A stretch of DNA of 64,000 nucleotides from Clostridia bacterium (GTDB lineage Bacteria > Bacillota > Clostridia > Peptostreptococcales > Anaerovoracaceae). The stretch is taken from contig JAILDT010000099.1 in the NCBI GenBank assembly GCA_024689085.1, forward strand, positions 1 to 64,000, written 5' to 3'. Position numbers and translations under genes: made by a program. Below the pieces are notes generated by a model. It did no database searches and had not been told where the DNA came from. It saw only the letters and a list, made by a program, of their open reading frames with translations. Numbering within the stretch: the stretch's first letter is position 1; every line of letters begins with the position of its first letter. This document shows positions 8,456 through 27,374 of the stretch, piece by piece.

Positions 8456-9232
8456 TTACTTGTTTTTGAACTCTGCTGCCCTCTTCTCCAGGAACGCCGA
8501 CGTTCCTTCCTTCAGGTCTTCTGACGAGAAGGAAATGCCGAAGGAGTTGACTTCCAGCTCTGATGCGGATTTCATATCCATATCATAGCCGTTGTTGATG
8601 CAATGCTTGGCGACGCCAACAGCGATCGGAGCTTTGCTCATAATCGTCTTCGCAAGAGCTTCGCAAGTCGGCATCAGTTCTTCCGGTTCAACGACCTTCT
8701 CAACCAGTCCGATACGTCCGGCTTCTTCCGCGCCAATGACCTCGGCTGTGTAGATCAGATACTTGGCCATGCCTTTGCCGACCAGTCTGGAGAGTCTCTG
8801 TGTTCCGCCGAATCCAGGGATCAGACCCAGGCCAACCTCAGGCTGACCGAACTTGGCCTTTGCGGAAGCAATTCTGATGTCGCAGGCCATGGACAGCTCG
8901 CATCCGCCGCCCAGTGCGAAACCGTTGACCGCCGCGATGACAGGTTTGCTCACGTTCTCGATGAAGTTCATCGTTCTGTGTCCCGCTTTTGCAAATTCTC
9001 TGGCTTCCAGAGTGTTGAAGTTTGCCATCTCCGCGATGTCCGCACCGGCAACGAAGGATCTGCCGTCGCCTGTCAGGATCGCAACCCTGGCTTCCCCATC
9101 TGCATCAAATTCTGCAAAAGCATCATAGAGCTCTTTGATGACCTTTGAGTTGAGCGCGTTCAGCGCTTCCGGTCTGCAGACTGTGATGTAGGCAATGCCT
9201 TCTTTTACTTCGTATTTCAGTGTTTCGTACAT
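8456..9232 (-). CDS. crt: Enoyl-CoA hydratase/3-hydroxybutyryl-CoA dehydratase (crotonase family)
   Basis: NALNSKVIKEL, SFVAGADIAEM, GFALGGGCELSMACDIRIAS, GQPEVGLGLIPGFGGTQRL. Confidence 0.92.
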   Translation of the reverse strand: MYETLKYEVKEGIAYITVCRPEALNALNSKVIKELYDAFAEFDADGEARVAILTGDGRSFVAGADIAEMANFNTLEAREFAKAGHRTMNFIENVSKPVIAAVNGFALGGGCELSMACDIRIASAKAKFGQPEVGLGLIPGFGGTQRLSRLVGKGMAKYLIYTAEVIGAEEAGRIGLVEKVVEPEELMPTCEALAKTIMSKAPIAVGVAKHCINNGYDMDMKSASELEVNSFGISFSSEDLKEGTSAFLEKRAAEFKNK

Positions 9233-9286: not shown

Positions 9287-10195
9287 TCACAATCCGAGCC
9301 GTTCTTCATCCAGTTTGCCCTTTTCTCTGATGACGATATATCCCGCCGCAACGACGATGATACCGCCTACGATCTGGAGCGGAGTAATCGTCTCATGCAG
9401 AAAGATCACGCCGCATATAGCGGTGCTCACCGGCATAAAGTCCGAATAGATTGCCGCAGGCGTCGGCCCAATCACTTTGATGGCAAATACATAGATCACA
9501 AATCCGATGGCTGCGTTCACGATGCCCATGTACAGGACGATCGCCCACAGAGACGCCGGCCAGGCAGAAAGTGCCGGCATGCTGCGCAGAGCCAGCGGCA
9601 GCAGAATGAGACCTGCGCAAGTCAGCTGCAGGAATGCCAGGCTGATGGAATCATATTTCCGAAGCGCATCAGTGAGGAAATTGAAGATATTCCAGCATAT
9701 GACCGCACCAAAGGCGATCAGATATCCAATCAGCCTTCCCTCAAGAAGAATGCTGAAATCTGCGCCAATGACAAAGACGATGCCCACGATACAGCCAATA
9801 ATACCAATGATAATCTTTTTGTTGGCTTTGCGCTTGAAAACCACCCTCTCGACGAGGACCGAAAGAGCCGGCACAAAGGCAAGCAATATCGTGAGAAGCG
9901 AGACCGGCAGATACGACATGGCGTTAAACTCGCACTCAAAGTACAGAATCTCACCGAATATTGAACAGGCGATGACCAGAGGGATATCTTTTTTCGCAAA
10001 GAAACTTTTATCCCTGCGGATGACTTTGACGATGCCGAGGGCGATGGCGCCAATAGAGATCCTGGCAAAGAGAAGACAATTCGGCGTCAGATCGTACATG
10101 CCGAACTTGGCAACGACATAGTCGAATCCCCACAACATGACCAGAAAAATCATCAGAATATGCGCTTTGATTATCGTGTTTTTAGAGTTGCTCAT
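9287..10195 (-). CDS. EamA/DMT-family transporter
   Basis: 10-TM EamA pattern (MLWGFDYVVAKFG...; PTPAAIYSDFMPVSTAICGVIFLHETITPLQIVGGIIVVAAGYIVI); ATG at 10195 overlaps the upstream gene stop by 4 nt. Confidence 0.88.
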   Translation of the reverse strand: MSNSKNTIIKAHILMIFLVMLWGFDYVVAKFGMYDLTPNCLLFARISIGAIALGIVKVIRRDKSFFAKKDIPLVIACSIFGEILYFECEFNAMSYLPVSLLTILLAFVPALSVLVERVVFKRKANKKIIIGIIGCIVGIVFVIGADFSILLEGRLIGYLIAFGAVICWNIFNFLTDALRKYDSISLAFLQLTCAGLILLPLALRSMPALSAWPASLWAIVLYMGIVNAAIGFVIYVFAIKVIGPTPAAIYSDFMPVSTAICGVIFLHETITPLQIVGGIIVVAAGYIVIREKGKLDEERLGL

Positions 10196-11373
10196 AGCAT
10201 GTTCTCGGATACTTCGATTTCTGAGAGATGCAGGGTGTCTTTGATCTTTACGATTTTCGGATGATGCAGATCGATGCCGATGCACGTTTGCAGCGCAGCG
10301 CGAATCGCCTCTTCCTCGCTGTCCATGATGACCGGAATCTTCATGCCGTTGGTGTTGCCTGAAGCGATGCCGTTGGTGTATGTGACGCCGAGGTCAATCT
10401 TATCCAGCGCTGAACGGAGTATGAAATCCGCCATACCGAAACCGATGGCATTGCCGTGGGCCCCTTCCGTCAGGTCCTCGATGATGATGCGCTGCACGCG
10501 CGGCACAGCGCCCGGAAGCTGCCCGAAAGCGTCCCGGCCGATGATGTTCGGGTCCATACCTGTGCCGCTGATTTCTTTGCCGATCCGCTCCACGATAAGC
10601 ACATCAATATCATCGTACTTGATGCGCGGCATAAGGCTTTTGGCCAGATCCAGCAGCTTCGGTTCACGGGTCAGGATGTTTTTGCCCGGTACGGCTTCCA
10701 CAGTATGTGTTTTTTCAAAAGCGTTCTCGATGACGGCAAGCCCGAAGGGGATGTCAACTCTCCCGATGATGACCTCGGCCGCATCAGGGATTGTGTGCGC
10801 AAGAGCCGGAAATCCTTCTCTGTGAATCCGCGAGCACCCATTGTGCTTACCCCCGCCAATAGCCAGCATCTTACAGAGGCCGCTCTCGACTTTGCCTGTG
10901 AAATCCGTGTGCGGCTTGACGCGCCCGATCGGAATGACGTAGTCCGCAGCGAGAGCCGGTTTGGAGAAATGAACATCCATTCCGTCTTCTGTCTGCCCGA
11001 TGATCTCCGTTTCCATGGAGGAATTGATCGGTACGTCCATGGTCTCTGCTGTGATACCGTAACCTTTGAGAATCTCCTCTTGCCCTTCCGACGTCCCGCC
11101 TCCATGGCTTCCCATGGCCGGAATGATAACTGGCTTTACACCGGCATCTCGCAGGGTATCGACGACGGCTTTTGCAATGAGATTGATATCCGTGACGCCG
11201 CGGCTTCCGACAAGGACGGCCGCCGAGGCCCCTTCCCTCATCTGCGCAGCAAAAGGCGCAGCCTGTGCTTTCACAGCCGCAGCCGTATCTTCCAGATGTT
11301 CATCGGCGAAGACCTGTTCGACCTTCACCATCTTCGGTAATTGCAGATTTCTGACTGCTTCCGGGAGTATCAT
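10192..11373 (-). CDS. LarA/DUF2088-like protein (lactate racemase N-terminal-domain family)
   Basis: PAMGSHGGGTSEGQEEILKGYGI, RVKPHTDFTGKVESGLCKMLAIGGGKHNG, typical of DUF2088/LarA-like proteins. Confidence 0.7.
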   Translation of the reverse strand: MILPEAVRNLQLPKMVKVEQVFADEHLEDTAAAVKAQAAPFAAQMREGASAAVLVGSRGVTDINLIAKAVVDTLRDAGVKPVIIPAMGSHGGGTSEGQEEILKGYGITAETMDVPINSSMETEIIGQTEDGMDVHFSKPALAADYVIPIGRVKPHTDFTGKVESGLCKMLAIGGGKHNGCSRIHREGFPALAHTIPDAAEVIIGRVDIPFGLAVIENAFEKTHTVEAVPGKNILTREPKLLDLAKSLMPRIKYDDIDVLIVERIGKEISGTGMDPNIIGRDAFGQLPGAVPRVQRIIIEDLTEGAHGNAIGFGMADFILRSALDKIDLGVTYTNGIASGNTNGMKIPVIMDSEEEAIRAALQTCIGIDLHHPKIVKIKDTLHLSEIEVSENML

Positions 11374-11388: not shown

Positions 11389-12663
11389 CTACAATTTCGT
11401 GTACAACACTTTGCCCGACGGGTTCCGCGGAATCTCGTCGATGTATTTGATGTGGACGAACCGCGGTCTTACCTGCCATTTGTCCATAAACATGCCGGCA
11501 ATCTCATATTCTCTGTCCGCCGTTTCCCGGCTGCTGGTGTGCACCGTGATGCCATCGTCATCGTTTCCCGTACAGATGATATCTTCACAGGCAAAAGCTT
11601 CCTGCAGGTCTTCCTGCACCTTGTCCAGGCTGATTCTCCTGCCCTGAATCTTGACAAAGCGCTTCTTACGTCCTGTGATGTAAAAGTACCCTTCTTCGTC
11701 CATCCGGGCCATATCGCCGGTCTTCAGACAGCCGCCGTTCACGTCGCCAAGGGCCAGATCTTCCCGCGACCGCGCATATCCGAGCGAGACGTTGGCGCCG
11801 AAATAGATCAGTTCGCCGTCTTCGGCGATAACCATGCTGCCGCCCGGCACCGGAATGCCGATGCTGCCGATCTTCGCAGCGCATTTTTCCGGCGGGATGT
11901 AGCTCATGCGGGCTGTTGCTTCTGTCTGCCCATACATAATGAAAAACCGTCTGCCGGTCTCAGCCGCCCAGTTAGCGTACTTCTTCTGCAGATCCTCGTT
12001 GAGGTGTCCGCCCGCCTGTGTCAGTGTCTTCAGGTGCGGCAGATTCATCTCACGAAGGTGCAGCCGCTCAAACATATCGTAGGTGTACGGCACGCCCGCC
12101 ATGGACGTGACTTCATATTTCTCAACCATCTCCCAGAATTCCTTCTGGAACAGGGTTTTGTTCGTCAGAACGATCGTTGCACCGACCGCAACATGGGAGT
12201 GGATCACGGACAGTCCATAGGTGTACTCCATCGGGAGCGTGGTGATCGGCCTCTCATCAGCCGTAATGCCAAGATACTCTACAATGGAATCGCAGTTGGC
12301 CTGGATGTTTTCATAGCTCAACCGTACGAGTTTCCGGTCGCCCGTACTGCCTGACGTGGAAAGCAACAGTCCCAGCTGTGGATTGACCGCATCGTCACCT
12401 TCATAGGTTTCCCGGAAAGACACTTTGACGTCCTCATCCAGATTTCTGCCGATGAGCAGGACCGGACAGCCCTTTCTCAGGAGCGCCAGATATCTGGCCA
12501 GACTCTCCGCGTCGTTGGAGCATTCGAGTATCACAACACCGCGGCAGTCTTCTGTGAGCGCGTCACCCATGTCCCAGATCTGCCCGTAGGTATACTCTCT
12601 GCCCTCGTCATCGATACAGATTATTCGGTCTTTGTATTCATCGTTTCGTTCAAAAAAGTACAT
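11389..12663 (-). CDS. AMP-binding (ANL superfamily) acyl-CoA/acyl-ACP synthetase-like ligase
   Basis: STSGSTGDRKLVRLSYENI, MYGQTEATARMSY, LKTGDMARMDEEGYFYITGRKKRFVKIQGRRI, NPSGKVLY; short N-terminal domain. Confidence 0.9.
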   Translation of the reverse strand: MYFFERNDEYKDRIICIDDEGREYTYGQIWDMGDALTEDCRGVVILECSNDAESLARYLALLRKGCPVLLIGRNLDEDVKVSFRETYEGDDAVNPQLGLLLSTSGSTGDRKLVRLSYENIQANCDSIVEYLGITADERPITTLPMEYTYGLSVIHSHVAVGATIVLTNKTLFQKEFWEMVEKYEVTSMAGVPYTYDMFERLHLREMNLPHLKTLTQAGGHLNEDLQKKYANWAAETGRRFFIMYGQTEATARMSYIPPEKCAAKIGSIGIPVPGGSMVIAEDGELIYFGANVSLGYARSREDLALGDVNGGCLKTGDMARMDEEGYFYITGRKKRFVKIQGRRISLDKVQEDLQEAFACEDIICTGNDDDGITVHTSSRETADREYEIAGMFMDKWQVRPRFVHIKYIDEIPRNPSGKVLYTKL

Positions 12664-14912
12664 GATAATAATGCAATCAGGTCCTTACGGTCCCATACGG
12701 TATTGAAATCCAACGCTTCTCCGGCGCAGACGACTCTGTCGACGCCTGCACAGTCCGCCCTGCGCATGTGTTCATAGATGTCCTTCTGATTGTCACCGCT
12801 GCTGACGATAGTCTGGATACGAGCCTCCATATAGCCTGCCAGTTCATTCAGACTTCCAATCTGCATCTCGTAGAACATACCGAACCGGGCTTCCAGATCC
12901 GTCAGTTTTCTTCCATCATTCGGGACCGGCACCACGTAGAGCCGGTTGCCCCAACGCTTCGCGGCGCCCAGATTCTTCTGCGTCGCGTACATCCTGCATA
13001 AGATCCTGTATTTTTCCGTGGCGATCCACGGCTGCAGATCATAGGTGGACGCTTCTTTCGCAAAGGCATCCCACCATCTGTTTCTGATTTCTTCGCTGTC
13101 CGAAGCGCCGTCCGTCAGCCAGAAGATGGTCTTCGGGCTGGAGCAGGCGTTCTGATCGGCTCCGTATGTATCATTGTAGAACATGTGGGCGAAATGCCCC
13201 AGCTCCTGATCGTCCATTTTTCTGAAGTCCTCCGTTCGGAACAATGCGACGGAGTACTTGTCCGGGAACGTGACGTCAACGCAGTCAGCCCCTTTCGGGA
13301 TGCTGCAGATGTGTTCTACCGTCCCATCGCCGCCCCAAACGATTCTGGCCTTTGCCTGCGACGAAATCTCTTCCAGCGTTTCATCTCCCCGCGGGAAAGT
13401 TACAAAGGCGTTCTGTTGCTTCAATAACGCAAAAGCCGGCCTGTCCAGAATCTTGCTGATTCCCTGGATTGCTACTTCTGTGATCTCAGAACTTCTGCCC
13501 GACACACGCACGATATTCGGATTGCCTGCCAACAGCGAAGCAATCCAAGAATAGGCGAACATCGTCGGCATGTTCGAAGGCGCAATGTGCAGCGTGAGAC
13601 CTTTTCCCCGTCTGTCTTCTGAGTCCGCATAACCGCTGCGGATCTTCTCCATGTGCGCGTGTCTGCACCAGAATCCAAGTGCGTAGAGTTCCGGATACTG
13701 CCGGTACATCGGTTCCTTCATGAACAGCTCGGACAGTTCCGCCAGAAACTCCATGACCGTATCATCGAATGCATTACGGATGGTCTCCGACGGCGGATAA
13801 GCCCCCGCCAGAACCTGCATCGCGCCTTCCGCATCGATGTCACCCGGAGTGCCTGTTGCTTTTGCAGCGCCTTCAAAGGTGTCGCTGCAGCCACGCACTT
13901 CCGCCTTGCTGATGCGGCCGCTGATCTCGAAGTACTTGCCTTTGCGTCCGCATGGGCAGTCATCGATGCCCAGAATCCTGCCCCAGTCTTCTGTAAGCAG
14001 CCGATGTCCCGGATAGGATTCCGGCAGAAGGGATTCCAGAGCGATCAGTCCCCACTCCCCTGTCCTACATGGAGAGAAATCCTCTGGATGCAAAACTGAA
14101 ATATCCGAATAGATGCTGGCGTGGAGATGCCCCTCCGGACACTGCATGAAGATGCTGCCTGTCTGCTCCGCCATGCCGTAATAATCGCTGACGCTGTCGA
14201 TCCCGCAAGTCTCCTGCAGCCCGCTTCGGAACACCTCATCGGAAACTTTTTTGTCCTGCAGTTTCTTCCATCCGCCGCCGTGGATCAGATGGCACCCTGC
14301 CAGGTCTACTGTTTTTGCATCCGCTTTCAGGCCGCCGTAGAGGTACTCCCAGATCATATAGGTGAATCCAAAGGCGAAAGTCGGCCCTTCTTTGGCAAGC
14401 TGCTGGAACTGTTCCAGCGACGCGTAGTCGATCCGCATGTTCTCGTCTAAAGCGTAGATGCGCTTCGACGCCATCATGGAAAATCCGAGAATGCCGGCGC
14501 CTCGGGCCGTGAATTTTCTCCTGTCCCGGAGCACATCCGGTGAATCGATGATCAGCATCGGTATGCGTTTTGTCCCGATGTAATCTCCTGTGATGCTGCA
14601 CAGGGCACGCTGCTGGGCTGCCGACGTATCGGCATCCAGATAGATCCGTGAGACCTGCTGACCTGTGGTTCCGGAAGAGGTGATCTTCCGGATGATCTGC
14701 TCATCAGGCACGCTCACAAGATCGATATCTTTGAACAGTGCAACCGGCAGGTAAGGAGCGTCCTCACCCAGCCCATTACAAATATCATCGTAAGCCGCAC
14801 AGGCTTTACGATGATCTTCTGTCATTTTCTTTAACTCTTTTCTATAGAATGATTCCTTGTCAGCCTGTGGTACGCTGTAGGGATCCATCTCCAGAAACTC
14901 AATGCGGTTCAT
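12621..14912 (-). CDS. LuxE (acyl-protein synthetase)-LuxC (acyl-CoA reductase) fusion protein
   Basis: N-half: KITSSGTTGQQVSRIYLD, HLIHGGGWKKLQDKKVS, YGMAEQTGSIFMQCPEGHLH (LuxE/PaaK-like). C-half: LTLHIAPSNMPTMFAYSWIASLLAGNPNIVRVSG, YGADQNACSSPKTIFW (LuxC/ALDH-like Cys). Single uninterrupted ORF; start trimmed to ATG 14912, preceded by AGGTGA. Confidence 0.88.
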   Translation of the reverse strand: MNRIEFLEMDPYSVPQADKESFYRKELKKMTEDHRKACAAYDDICNGLGEDAPYLPVALFKDIDLVSVPDEQIIRKITSSGTTGQQVSRIYLDADTSAAQQRALCSITGDYIGTKRIPMLIIDSPDVLRDRRKFTARGAGILGFSMMASKRIYALDENMRIDYASLEQFQQLAKEGPTFAFGFTYMIWEYLYGGLKADAKTVDLAGCHLIHGGGWKKLQDKKVSDEVFRSGLQETCGIDSVSDYYGMAEQTGSIFMQCPEGHLHASIYSDISVLHPEDFSPCRTGEWGLIALESLLPESYPGHRLLTEDWGRILGIDDCPCGRKGKYFEISGRISKAEVRGCSDTFEGAAKATGTPGDIDAEGAMQVLAGAYPPSETIRNAFDDTVMEFLAELSELFMKEPMYRQYPELYALGFWCRHAHMEKIRSGYADSEDRRGKGLTLHIAPSNMPTMFAYSWIASLLAGNPNIVRVSGRSSEITEVAIQGISKILDRPAFALLKQQNAFVTFPRGDETLEEISSQAKARIVWGGDGTVEHICSIPKGADCVDVTFPDKYSVALFRTEDFRKMDDQELGHFAHMFYNDTYGADQNACSSPKTIFWLTDGASDSEEIRNRWWDAFAKEASTYDLQPWIATEKYRILCRMYATQKNLGAAKRWGNRLYVVPVPNDGRKLTDLEARFGMFYEMQIGSLNELAGYMEARIQTIVSSGDNQKDIYEHMRRADCAGVDRVVCAGEALDFNTVWDRKDLIALLSCTFLNETMNTKTE

Positions 14913-15543
14913 GTTCTTCACCTTTGACGTATGATGGTCCATGTCCCGGACAGATTTTCATGCCGTCAGGGATTTTTTTCAGGATCGGCATAGTCAGTTT
15001 CTCATAATCATCGGCATCTCCGCCCCTCAGCCTCAGGGTTGTCTCTTCACCCGGAATCATGTAGTCTCCGCTGAAGAGGTACTCGTCATCCATCGTTATA
15101 AGCACGCTGCCAGGCGAATGACCCGGCGTCCGGATAAAATCGAAGTTGTGACCGCGCCATGTCATCTCGTACGTTTCTTCATATGTGATCTCCGCCTGTC
15201 TGCAGGTAAATCTCGGCGTTCTCTCTTCGGAGATAATGCCGGTTTTGAAGTAAGAAATCATGTCCCCGATCGTTGAAAGATTCTCCTTAGGATTCTCTAA
15301 ACGCTCACTGCATATTCTGCACGCTACAACGGGAACATCGTACTTGCTGCGAACTGTTTCCAGATTTTCGATATGATCAACGTGTTCGTGCGTCAGAAAT
15401 ACATACTCCGGAATCCATCCGTTCTTATCTATTTCCGCCTCCACGACTCCATTCTGTCCCGGATCGATTATCACAACATAACCATCCTCTTCAATCAGAT
15501 AGCTATTGCAGATTGTCTTTGGTGAGGTGAGTTTTGTAATCAT
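14899..15543 (-). CDS. MBL-fold metallo-hydrolase
   Basis: VFLTHEHVDHIENLE (HxHxDH), TPGHSPGSV, LFSGDYM, PGHGP. Confidence 0.92.
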   Translation of the reverse strand: MITKLTSPKTICNSYLIEEDGYVVIIDPGQNGVVEAEIDKNGWIPEYVFLTHEHVDHIENLETVRSKYDVPVVACRICSERLENPKENLSTIGDMISYFKTGIISEERTPRFTCRQAEITYEETYEMTWRGHNFDFIRTPGHSPGSVLITMDDEYLFSGDYMIPGEETTLRLRGGDADDYEKLTMPILKKIPDGMKICPGHGPSYVKGEEHEPH

Positions 15544-15550
15544 CTCTTAG

Positions 15551-15796
15551 CTATTCGTCGAAGTTCACTCCGTACTTCTCTGTCAGAATCCTGATACCCT
15601 TCTCATAGGTCGAAAGATCCAGCACGTCCTTGGTGTCCATCTGGATGCCATAGGCCGCCTCGATGTCGGCAATCAGATCCATGTGCCCGACGGAATCCCA
15701 CTGGATAATTCCCATGTATTCCAGCCCCGGCAGATCCTCTTCTTTCACTCTGAAATTCAGTACGAATGCTCTCTTGTATTTCTCGAGATTTGTCAT
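15551..15796 (-). CDS. Acyl carrier protein
   Basis: 81 aa; phosphopantetheine site WDSVGHMDLI; acidic helical ACP pattern. Confidence 0.88.
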   Translation of the reverse strand: MTNLEKYKRAFVLNFRVKEEDLPGLEYMGIIQWDSVGHMDLIADIEAAYGIQMDTKDVLDLSTYEKGIRILTEKYGVNFDE

Positions 15797-23602: not shown

Positions 23603-24028
23603 TTACTTACCGGCGAGGTACAATATAGCCTCCCGGTACCCTTCGAAGCCTTTGCCTTTGATCGTCTTCGCCGCTGCCAGCGACACATAGGAAATCTTCC
23701 GGAACGACTCCCGGCTGTCCACGTCGGACAGATGCACTTCTACCGTCGGGATCCCCACCGCTTTCAGTGCGTCCAGGATGGCGACGCTTGTATGCGTATA
23801 GGCTGCCGGGTTGATCACGATGCCGTCCGCATCTCCGATTGCCTTCTGAATGCGGTCCACGATTTCCCCTTCGTGATTGGACTGATACACATCCCCTTCC
23901 ACACCGGCTTCGGCAAACGCCTCTTCAATAAAATTCACCAGATCGGCGTAGGTTTCTGTGCCGTAGATCTCCGGTTCTCTGATGCCGAGCAGATTGATGT
24001 TCGGTCCGTTGATGACAAGTATCTTCAT
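23603..24028 (-). CDS. aroQ: 3-dehydroquinate dehydratase, type II
   Basis: MKILVINGPNINLLGIREPEIYG, QSNHEGEIVDRIQKA, INPAAYTHTSVAILDAL, EVHLSDVDSRE. Confidence 0.96.
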   Translation of the reverse strand: MKILVINGPNINLLGIREPEIYGTETYADLVNFIEEAFAEAGVEGDVYQSNHEGEIVDRIQKAIGDADGIVINPAAYTHTSVAILDALKAVGIPTVEVHLSDVDSRESFRKISYVSLAAAKTIKGKGFEGYREAILYLAGK

Positions 24029-26607
24029 AATTCTTCTCCCGGGCCGGTCTTTGCCGCAACCCTGATATCGCTCCAGTTTTCATATCTGTCCCGGCGGCGT
24101 TCAAACAGGGCTTCTACGCCCTCGCGCTGCGAGACCGGCCTTCCGTCTGTCGCCAGTTTGTCGAGATCCCATTCCAGATACAACACAAGACTGTTCTCAA
24201 GCAAAGGCACCAGATTCTCTTCTCGTTCGACACAGCCGCCCCCTGCTGCAAAAACAATACCCGGGGCAGATCCGTCCGGCTGCGGTCCGCGCCGCATGAC
24301 CTGACGGATGACCTCTGTTTCAATGGCGCGGAACTGCGCCAGGCCTTCCACGTTGATGATGTCCTCGGGCGTCCTGCCGTAAATCTCATGGATCATCTCA
24401 TCACTGTCGATGAAATCCTTACCCGTGATTTCCGCGATTCTCTTCCCGACGGTCGTCTTGCCGCAGCCCGGCATGCCGATCAGGACGATGTTCTCCAGTT
24501 CCCACTTCAAACTGTCCGTGACATGCTGTGTCACCGCCTCCGTATCCATCTCAACACCCATAAATAGTTCGTATGCTTTCGCAGCCTGGGCTGCCAGCAT
24601 GTGGAAACCGCCAAACGCCGGGATGCCGGCTGCGCGGGCGTCCAGCATAAGCTTCGTTCTAATTGGATTGTATATAACATCGAAGACTGCTCTGCAATGC
24701 GGGAACTGCCGAATGTCGACTGCCGCCTCACCAGCGTGCGGGTACATGCCCACCGGCGTTGCGTTCACCAGAATCTGCGCATCAAAATGTCTGCGCAGAT
24801 TCTCGTAGTTATCTACGCCGTTTCTGGAAATCACAACAACCGGATCGGCGCCCAGATCTTCAAGCACCTTCACCACGGTCCCGGAAACTCCGCCGCTGCC
24901 AAGAACAATCGTCTTCGCTTTCTTCACGTCGATGCCCGACGCGAGCACCGTACTGCGGAATCCGTAGTAATCTGTATTATCGCCGAAGCAGGTTCCATCT
25001 TCGCGCTTCACGATCGTGTTCACGCTGCCGCATGCTTTTGCAGTATCAGATAGTTCACTGCAGTACTTCATCACGTCCCGCTTGTAAGGCATGGTGACGG
25101 TGATCCCTTTGAAGTTCCCTTCTCTGAAAAACCCGTCAAGTTCCTCCGGCTCGCGGTCGAAGAGACAGAACCCATAATCGCCGATCAGCCGGTGGATCTG
25201 CGGGGAATAGCTGTGTCCCAGATGTCTGCCGAGAAGGCCGTATTCCAGACCGCTTCCCTGCTGCATTCTGCGATCCGCCTGATATCGTCTGCTCTGTGCC
25301 ATCACAGCGTTCATCGTTTCCGTAATGTACGGCGCTTTTTCTCTGCTGCAAAGGCCTTCGATCGCACTGCGTTTCTCCTGCTCTCTTTCTGCGTTGTATA
25401 CAGGAATGCCTGCCTTTTCTTTGCACGCGGCGATGCTGTCCACTGTTTCAAATCTCTCTTCCAGCAGGTTCACGATCGCCGCATCGATGCTGTCGATCTG
25501 CTGCCTGTCAGCGTTCAGATCTGCCTGGACACGTTCTTCTAAAAGCATATCAAAGACTGCGATGGCGGCGGCGGCTTCGATGCATGGGACCGCCCGCGGC
25601 ACAATGCACGGATCGTGTCTGCCGCCGACTGTGATTTTCACCGGCTCCATCCCGGATAAATCCACACTGTCCTGCTCGATTCCGATGGAAGGCGTTGGTT
25701 TCATAGCCACGCGAAAGACAACCGGCATTCCCGTTGTCAGTCCGCCCAGAATACCGCCATGGTGATTCGTCACGGTCGTAACCTTGCCATCTTTGATCTC
25801 ATAGGCGTCGTTGTTCTCCGACCCCTTCATTCTGCTTACGTCGAAACCGTCGCCGAAGGCAATGCCCTTGACCGCGGGAACCGCGAAGACAGCCTGACTG
25901 ATTCTGCTCTCCATGCTGCCGAAGACCGGCTCTCCAATACCTGCGTTCAGTCCGGTGACCATGCATTCTACGGTGCCGCCAATGGAATCTCCCGCATCTC
26001 TGACGCCGGCGATGAGTTTCTTCATCCATTCGCCTTCCTCCGCGTCGATGACCGGGAAATCATCCCTCACGACAGCGTCCTCTGTCATCGCGGCGTCCTT
26101 CACGTCACCGATGGATCCGATATGTCCTTTGACGCCTACGCCCTGCTCCGCGAGCCACTGGATGCAAAGTCCTCCCGCAACGCACAGCGGCGCTGTCAGT
26201 CTGGCGCTGAAGGGACCGCCGCCCGGTTCTATCGCCCCATACTTCACCCAGGCCGGATAATCCGCATGACCCGGCCGCGGAATCGTGATTGTCCTTTCAT
26301 AATCCTGCGGACGGGCGTCGGTGTTGTCGATCACCGCTTCGATAACATCGCCGTTCGTTACGTATCTGCACGATTGTTCACCATCCGATTTCTTCTCAAC
26401 GCCGGACAGGAACCGCGGCACATCCGCTTCTCTTCTCGCTGTGGACCAGTCGTTTCGTCCAGGCGCACGCCGGTCAAGAAATGCCTGAAGCTTTTGCATA
26501 TCAAAAGAAAGCCCCGCGGGCACACCGCGCATCCGCACTCCGACGCACGGCCCGTGGGACGTTCCGAAAAGTTCAATCTTCAGTTTTTCTCCGAACACTG
26601 CTGTCAT
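24025..26607 (-). CDS. Four-domain shikimate enzyme: chorismate synthase - chorismate mutase (AroQ class) - shikimate dehydrogenase - shikimate kinase
   Basis: One 860-aa ORF: GTSHGPCVGVRMRGVPAG/RPGHADYPAWVKYG (AroC); RQQIDSIDAAIVNLLEERFETVDSIAACKEKAGIPVYNAEREQ (CM); LLGRHLGHSYSPQIHRLI/GITVTMPYK/VLGSGGVSGTVVKVLEDLGA (AroE); VLIGMPGCGKTTVGKRIAEITGKDFIDSDEMI (AroK). ATG at 26607 overlaps the aroF stop (TGATG). Confidence 0.93.
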   Translation of the reverse strand: MTAVFGEKLKIELFGTSHGPCVGVRMRGVPAGLSFDMQKLQAFLDRRAPGRNDWSTARREADVPRFLSGVEKKSDGEQSCRYVTNGDVIEAVIDNTDARPQDYERTITIPRPGHADYPAWVKYGAIEPGGGPFSARLTAPLCVAGGLCIQWLAEQGVGVKGHIGSIGDVKDAAMTEDAVVRDDFPVIDAEEGEWMKKLIAGVRDAGDSIGGTVECMVTGLNAGIGEPVFGSMESRISQAVFAVPAVKGIAFGDGFDVSRMKGSENNDAYEIKDGKVTTVTNHHGGILGGLTTGMPVVFRVAMKPTPSIGIEQDSVDLSGMEPVKITVGGRHDPCIVPRAVPCIEAAAAIAVFDMLLEERVQADLNADRQQIDSIDAAIVNLLEERFETVDSIAACKEKAGIPVYNAEREQEKRSAIEGLCSREKAPYITETMNAVMAQSRRYQADRRMQQGSGLEYGLLGRHLGHSYSPQIHRLIGDYGFCLFDREPEELDGFFREGNFKGITVTMPYKRDVMKYCSELSDTAKACGSVNTIVKREDGTCFGDNTDYYGFRSTVLASGIDVKKAKTIVLGSGGVSGTVVKVLEDLGADPVVVISRNGVDNYENLRRHFDAQILVNATPVGMYPHAGEAAVDIRQFPHCRAVFDVIYNPIRTKLMLDARAAGIPAFGGFHMLAAQAAKAYELFMGVEMDTEAVTQHVTDSLKWELENIVLIGMPGCGKTTVGKRIAEITGKDFIDSDEMIHEIYGRTPEDIINVEGLAQFRAIETEVIRQVMRRGPQPDGSAPGIVFAAGGGCVEREENLVPLLENSLVLYLEWDLDKLATDGRPVSQREGVEALFERRRDRYENWSDIRVAAKTGPGEEL

Positions 26608-27374
26608 CAGACGATCGCCTCTCTGATTTTCATGATTTTGCGTGCGACTTCGTCGAACTGGTCCGGCGTAAGGGCCTGCGCCCCGTCGCAAAGAGCGTTT
26701 TTCGGATCGTTATGAACCTCGATCATGATACCGTCGGCCCCTGCCGCCGCAGCTGCCAGGGCCATCGGTTCTACAAGAGACGCCCGGCCTGCCGCATGAC
26801 TCGGGTCTACCACAACCGGCAGATCTGTCAATTCTTTCAGCGCGGCCACCGAAGAGAGATCGAGGGTAAATCTCGTATAGGATTCAAAGGTTCTGATTCC
26901 TCTCTCGCAGAGGATGACCTTGTCATTTCCTTCCGATGTGATGTATTCGGCGCTCATCAGGAGCTCCCGGAGGGTATTGGACATCCCGCGTTTGAGGAGG
27001 ATGACCTTATCGGTTCTTCCCAGCGCTCTGAGGAGTTCGAAGTTCTGCATGTTTCTGGCGCCCACCTGGATGATATCGACGTCATCAAACAGAGGCAGAT
27101 GCTCTTTGCTGACGATCTCCGTCACGACCGGCATGTCTGTGGCTTCCTTTGTCTTCAGAAGGAGTTCGATGCCTTCACGGCCCATTCCCTGAAAATCATA
27201 GGGGGACGTCCTGCCTTTGAAAGCGCCGCCACGCAGGATGCTTGCACCGGATTCTCTGACGCTCTGCGCGATCGTCAGAATCTGTTCTTCCGATTCCACC
27301 GTGCATGGTCCCGCAATCAGGGTGAAATTCCCTCCGCCTATCTTTATGCCGTTTACATCAAGCACTTTACTCAT
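26607..27374 (-). CDS. aroF: 3-deoxy-7-phosphoheptulonate synthase
   Basis: [82 protein letters not shown]. Confidence 0.95.

Follow-up and report, generated by a model that had tools for sequence, protein, structure and literature searches.

The stretch of DNA analysed here (the window: 64,000 nucleotides of contig JAILDT010000099.1, from a Clostridia bacterium of the Anaerovoracaceae, a gut/rumen-type relative of Clostridium, assembly GCA_024689085.1) encodes on its minus strand a 763-aa protein in which a LuxE acyl-protein synthetase domain is joined to a LuxC acyl reductase domain (luxE=luxC fusion gene, 12621-14912). Judged from its sequence, this protein very probably works by the mechanism of a carboxylic-acid reductase in which LuxE and LuxC are combined on one chain. 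The wider explanation, in which the reductase acts on a short (~C4) acid and its operon partners have the roles proposed below, has in our estimate an even chance of being right as a whole. The fusion is widely conserved in one genus, is mechanistically sensible and has a precedent in Vibrio, and the conserved operon appears to function in the metabolism of short-chain acids and not in light production.

The fused frame, its two domains and their cysteines

The gene is a single open frame; read on the plus strand, the interval is riddled with stops. The start kept among relatives is MNRIEF at 14912; an alternative ATG is found 10 codons upstream, at 14942. Across ~20 genome bins from the window's genus, full-length homologues with ~59-79% identity were detected, and the two cysteines described below are present in these homologues wherever the region is covered. 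Because the same frame recurs in many bins of the genus, a chance ORF or an assembly join was ruled out, and the fusion is confirmed to be real.

The N-terminal half matched the Pfam LuxE family PF04443 over aa 9-347 (13872-14888, minus strand, as for all features of the gene) at 2.5e-40, with 139 bits against a curated cut-off of 24.9, and a profile built from 15 diverse LuxE sequences recovered 7xc6_E, the LuxE chain of the solved Photobacterium complex, at 1.9e-39. Two features of the LuxE family were found: an adenylate-forming P-loop, SSGTTG (aa 79-84, 14661-14678), and, near the end of the domain, a candidate acyl-carrying cysteine, Cys342 (13887-13889), within the motif RGCSD (aa 340-344). 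Alignment with P. phosphoreum LuxE places Cys342 on the GCS cysteine close to the C-terminal end of 7xc6_E, a residue that we take to be Cys364, the known acyl-transfer cysteine. Cys342 is invariant across the 15 diverse LuxE sequences aligned. The score for NF052244, the NCBIfam equivalog for long-chain-fatty-acid--protein ligase LuxE, was below the cut-off (46.6 versus 550 bits). By these profile matches, the LuxE half is a member of the LuxE family but falls outside the bioluminescence equivalog.

The C-terminal half (~aa 364-750, 12663-13823) is a LuxC domain, an acyl reductase with the aldehyde dehydrogenase (ALDH) fold; the PF05893 match itself covers aa 423-627 (5.1e-24, 85.3 bits against a curated cut-off of 21). 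A LuxC profile, likewise built from diverse sequences, recovered the LuxC chain 7xc6_A at 4.2e-19. The candidate catalytic nucleophile is Cys590 (13143-13145) in DQNACSSP (aa 586-593), which aligns over DQQAC of 7xc6_A and is invariant in 15 diverse LuxC sequences, its placement in the active site being judged from the alignment with 7xc6 alone. The AlphaFold2 model (mean predicted local distance difference test score, pLDDT, of 82.5) has two confident folded parts flanking a disordered hinge (aa 334-363, 13824-13913, pLDDT < 50), and Cys342 falls inside this hinge. Among fused homologues, the linker beyond RGCSDTF is hypervariable in both length and sequence. The best Foldseek match was 7xc6_A, followed by aldehyde dehydrogenases and PaaK-type ligases.

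A preliminary description of this DNA had read the gene as an uninterrupted 763-aa frame carrying LuxE and LuxC on one chain, with an adenylating motif in the N-terminal half and a LuxC/ALDH-type cysteine in the C-terminal half. All of this was borne out: the frame is on the minus strand, PF04443 and PF05893 both score above their cut-offs on the one protein, SSGTTG lies in the PF04443 match, and Cys590 has the support of the DQQAC alignment and of the Foldseek match to 7xc6_A. The motifs quoted (SSGTTG, CPCGRKG beginning at aa 319, RGCSD and DQNACSSP) are exact in the frame, but in the case of RGCSD the role of the conserved Cys342 at the hinge had been overlooked.

Compared with the LuxC-LuxE fatty acid reductase of Photobacterium phosphoreum (PDB 7xc6), both subunits are thus found by profile, LuxC also by fold, and both catalytic cysteines align with Cys342 and Cys590. 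The window protein differs in being one chain, in LuxE-LuxC order, with the putative acyl-carrying cysteine at an internal hinge rather than near a free C-terminus.

Origins of the fusion and comparison with RfbN and carboxylic-acid reductases

Clostridium cadaveris, many Clostridia and an Elusimicrobia genome have LuxE and LuxC as separate genes next to each other. Our sample contains fusions in two places: one is the window's genus, and the other comprises three genomes (G058, G135 and G265) from two further families, with a protein 42% identical to that of the window. A single origin of all Clostridia fusions was rejected, since approximately unbiased (AU) tests of one clade gave p 9.2e-5 for LuxC and p 0.02 for LuxE; with both domains in agreement, the trees indicate that the LuxE-LuxC fusion arose at least twice. 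The second Clostridia fusion shares the LuxE-LuxC order and partners, an acyl carrier protein (ACP) and an ANL ligase, with that of the window. It differs in its independent origin and in its location in sugar-type clusters with transketolase halves and thiamine diphosphate enzymes, two of the three loci also having glycosyltransferases. In two other Clostridia, LuxC is fused to an AMP-binding (ANL) domain (L045, 89-2563; L046, 1339-3930).

Vibrio RfbN, which is annotated as LuxE and LuxC in one protein (PMC4772473, PMC11264103) and contains a LuxE domain (PMC12208996, PMC4772473), appears to be a further, long-known LuxE/LuxC fusion. In a table for V. vulnificus, RfbN is entered as neighbouring pieces of 672 and 131; we read these figures as residues since the ACP entry is 77 (PMC4772473, PMC11264103). 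In V. cholerae, 2,4-dihydroxybutanoate destined for O-antigen is handled by the ANL protein RfbL and the carrier protein RfbK (PMC12208996). RfbN, compared here by annotation only, thus shares ACP and ANL partners with the window protein, and differs in serving O-antigen tetronate. Because of this Vibrio precedent, the fused architecture appears, from annotation, not to be new as a kind; the preliminary description had treated separate LuxC and LuxE as the known state in Vibrio and Photobacterium and had missed RfbN.

Carboxylic-acid reductases (CARs) have an adenylation domain that is an ANL domain and a reductase of the short-chain dehydrogenase/reductase (SDR) type. The window protein would resemble them in having adenylation, a covalent thioester arm and a reductase on one chain, and it would work like a CAR in this sense but is not a member of that family, because no carrier domain (PF00550) was found on the chain, where the hinge is disordered, and because the reductase half is LuxC/ALDH-like. 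The different ancestry from CAR claimed in the preliminary description therefore stands for the reductase half but not for the LuxE half, which the Foldseek matches to PaaK mark as a distant ANL/PaaK relative.

Genomic settings, and a proposed substrate class and reaction

An ACP and an ANL ligase are the most constant partners of LuxE and LuxC across phyla, whether fused or unfused; the two genes had been noticed near the fusion before, but not as standing partners in a widespread cassette. The loci fall into two settings. Setting A, of sugar type, comprises ACP, SDR, transketolase halves, ANL, LuxE and LuxC, often with glycosyltransferases, and resembles published flagellin-glycan islands. 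Setting B has the layout (MaoC)-ACP-(MBL)-LuxE-LuxC-ANL together with acyl-CoA genes, and no glycosyltransferase was found in it. The window cassette belongs to setting B, the usual order in its genus being MaoC-ACP-MBL-LuxE=LuxC-ANL-AKR-crotonase (AKR, aldo/keto reductase). In contrast to the lux system, the context of the fusion is acyl-CoA/ACP metabolism, and neither luciferase nor LuxD was found among its identified operon neighbours. With no luciferase and a score far below the cut-off of the LuxE equivalog model, a role in bioluminescence was ruled out.

The ACP, ANL and acyltransferase-like genes, all present in the window, would also be consistent with a pathway of the RfbN type, in which LuxE=LuxC and a reductase make a hydroxy acid, the ANL ligase loads it onto ACP and a CAT-like protein transfers it to a polysaccharide, glycolipid or other acceptor. 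Precedents are the use of 2,4-dihydroxybutanoate by V. cholerae RfbL/RfbK, alongside an RfbN with a LuxE domain, and the flagellin glycosylation islands of Aeromonas and Enterobacteriaceae and a Deinococcus plasmid locus, which combine ACP, SDR, ANL, LuxE and LuxC with glycosyltransferases. However, neither the window cassette nor its homologues in the genus yielded a glycosyltransferase or other sugar gene, the window clade is not joined with the sugar-type fusions in either the LuxE or the LuxC tree, and the CAT-like gene is confined to the window's subclade; we consider an RfbN-type pathway unlikely here. At seven loci (L014, L040, L041, L094, L095, L035 and L050), LuxE/LuxC are recurrently paired with split transketolase halves and SDRs, and in these sugar-type clusters an aldehyde made by LuxC might be lengthened by ketol transfer.

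A different association was seen for unfused relatives outside the genus. Five loci (L012, L038, L039, L042 and L043, in the genomes of C. cadaveris, G243, G263, G121 and G210) each have abfD within ~7 kb. At these loci the abfD product is 78-84% identical to that of C. cadaveris, for which 4-hydroxybutyryl-CoA dehydratase 1u8v is a match of 807 bits. AbfT-like (4-hydroxybutyrate-type) CoA-transferases are encoded in the same stretches, a PrdR-like sigma-54 activator in four of the five, and thiolase, crotonase, 3-hydroxyacyl-CoA dehydrogenase, acyl-CoA dehydrogenase with electron-transfer flavoprotein, iron-type alcohol dehydrogenase and acylating ALDH in various combinations. By contrast, abfD was absent near all 10 of the other, mostly setting-A, loci (L013, L014, L035-L037, L040, L041 and L094-L096). 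The association of abfD with setting (Fisher p 3e-4, or 1.4e-3 with the cut locus L044 counted as a miss) is only indicative, given the small number of loci, the origin of two of them in a single family and an A/B split drawn from gene content. The window's genome encodes its AKR orthologue (60%) at a distance of 15 nt from a CoA-transferase of butyryl/4-hydroxybutyrate type. Since the unfused relatives adjoin 4-hydroxybutyrate/butyrate genes at five loci and the ten sugar-type cassettes do not, a C4 acid is more likely as the substrate than a fatty acid. Our tentative assignment, to which we give slightly less than an even chance, is a short (~C4) carboxylic or dicarboxylic acid connected with the metabolism of 4-hydroxybutyrate and crotonyl-CoA, as opposed to a fatty acid of long chain length. 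The abfD/abfT-linked unfused cassettes themselves may represent a 4-hydroxybutyrate regulon holding an unexplained ACP/acid-reductase module.

Several observations weigh against a C4-acid reductase. Tracking of abfD by the fusion inside the genus was not supported, since 38 of its 49 genomes contain abfD irrespective of whether they have the fusion, and the abfD gene of the window's genome is on another contig. G243 also has an acylating ALDH, so LuxE/LuxC would not be needed there merely for succinate semialdehyde. The window operon has lost both MaoC and AKR, and hence neither is obligatory at that place. Finally, identity to the solved LuxC in the structural match is only 15%. A divergence this large might point to a conserved pair with some other role, for example one that is catalytically degenerate or that oxidises an aldehyde in the reverse direction; the motif residues and both cysteines are invariant, however, which is unexpected in a dead enzyme, and we regard such a role as very improbable.

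The sequence evidence establishes both domains, both cysteines, the disordered hinge, operon conservation and independent fusion; each catalytic step of the acid reductase, the direction in which it runs, its product as an aldehyde and the class of its substrate are inferences. The LuxE half would convert the free acid and ATP to acyl-AMP and transfer the acyl group to Cys342, at the start of the flexible internal linker. This linker would bring Cys342 to the LuxC half, where Cys590 would receive the acyl group and NAD(P)H would reduce the resulting thioester to the aldehyde. In a separate LuxE the acyl-bearing cysteine sits on a free tail, whereas in the fusion the tail would be turned into a tether anchored at both ends. 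It is plausible, as the preliminary description proposed, that the fusion does away with subunit assembly. The aldehyde would be reduced further, to an alcohol or a hydroxy acid, by the AKR, whose gene most of the sampled genus members have in this operon. The ANL ligase and ACP would serve to attach a product or precursor to the carrier, from which the MBL hydrolase would free it.

For the presumed roles of ANL, ACP and MBL two orders are workable, because LuxE requires a free acid and ACP may act either before or after the reductase. ANL and ACP could act after it, as for RfbL/RfbK, or ACP and MBL could act before it, like LuxD in lux. In the lux system, LuxD first hydrolyses the ACP-bound acyl group, and LuxE then re-activates the free acid. 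The constancy of ACP and ANL as partners might alternatively mean that the ANL ligase charges ACP and that LuxC reduces acyl-ACP directly, with the LuxE half mainly a transferase or scaffold. Yet the LuxE half retains the adenylating P-loop and the invariant Cys342, and by analogy the MBL hydrolase could take the part of LuxD, freeing the acid for re-activation by LuxE; direct reduction of acyl-ACP, the kind of donor suggested in the preliminary description, strikes us as distinctly unlikely.

An active fusion would amount to a compact catalyst of acid-to-aldehyde conversion, driven by ATP and NAD(P)H and, unlike CAR, independent of phosphopantetheinylation; it would also provide a natural test of the acyl hand-over from LuxE to LuxC. 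The class comparison offers a concrete non-luminescent setting for LuxE/LuxC in anaerobes, the 4-hydroxybutyrate/butyrate loci; in a literature search we found neither an earlier description of LuxE/LuxC in such loci nor a link of LuxE/LuxC with 4-hydroxybutyryl-CoA dehydratase. The boldest version of the proposal, in which a phosphopantetheine-free single-chain reductase with an internal swinging cysteine tether made by the fusion feeds a C4 semialdehyde or alcohol branch of the 4-hydroxybutyrate/butyrate fermentation carried out by Clostridia of the rumen and gut, is speculative, and we hold it to be doubtful.

Operon neighbours and other genes of the window

The cassette genes are all on the minus strand, and intergenic gaps of -43 to +54 nt suggest that they form one transcript. 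The gene for the MBL-fold hydrolase (14899-15543), which is glyoxalase II-like and a candidate thioesterase or lactonase, overlaps the fusion gene by 14 nt. Beyond it are encoded an ACP-like protein of 81 aa (15551-15796) with Ser35 in WDSVG, for which the Pfam/NCBIfam match is weak and which is kept in relatives, and a CAT/E2-like acyltransferase-fold protein (PF00198; 15827-16726) present in the window's subclade only. On the other side, the gene for the stand-alone ANL (AMP-binding) ligase (11389-12663) shares 43 nt with the end of the fusion gene and is followed by genes for a nickel-pincer-nucleotide isomerase of group 22 in the LarA superfamily (10192-11373; NF052515 above cut-off), an EamA-type exporter (9287-10198) found in some members of the window's subclade, and an enoyl-CoA hydratase/crotonase (8456-9232), which the genus keeps downstream of the cassette. 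The CAT-like gene and the group 22 isomerase, a subclade-specific neighbour, are gains of the window's subclade.

The group 22 isomerase was not mentioned by that name in the LarA literature consulted. Ni_insertion (LarC-type) genes are located elsewhere in the window's genome, and at L005 (8424-9727) the isomerase is encoded in two adjacent frames, possibly owing to a frameshift or an assembly split. Further along the window, an 888-aa frame on the minus strand (24025-26691) combines chorismate synthase, chorismate mutase type II, shikimate dehydrogenase and shikimate kinase in an AROM-like four-domain fusion and adjoins a DAHP synthase gene (26607-27374).

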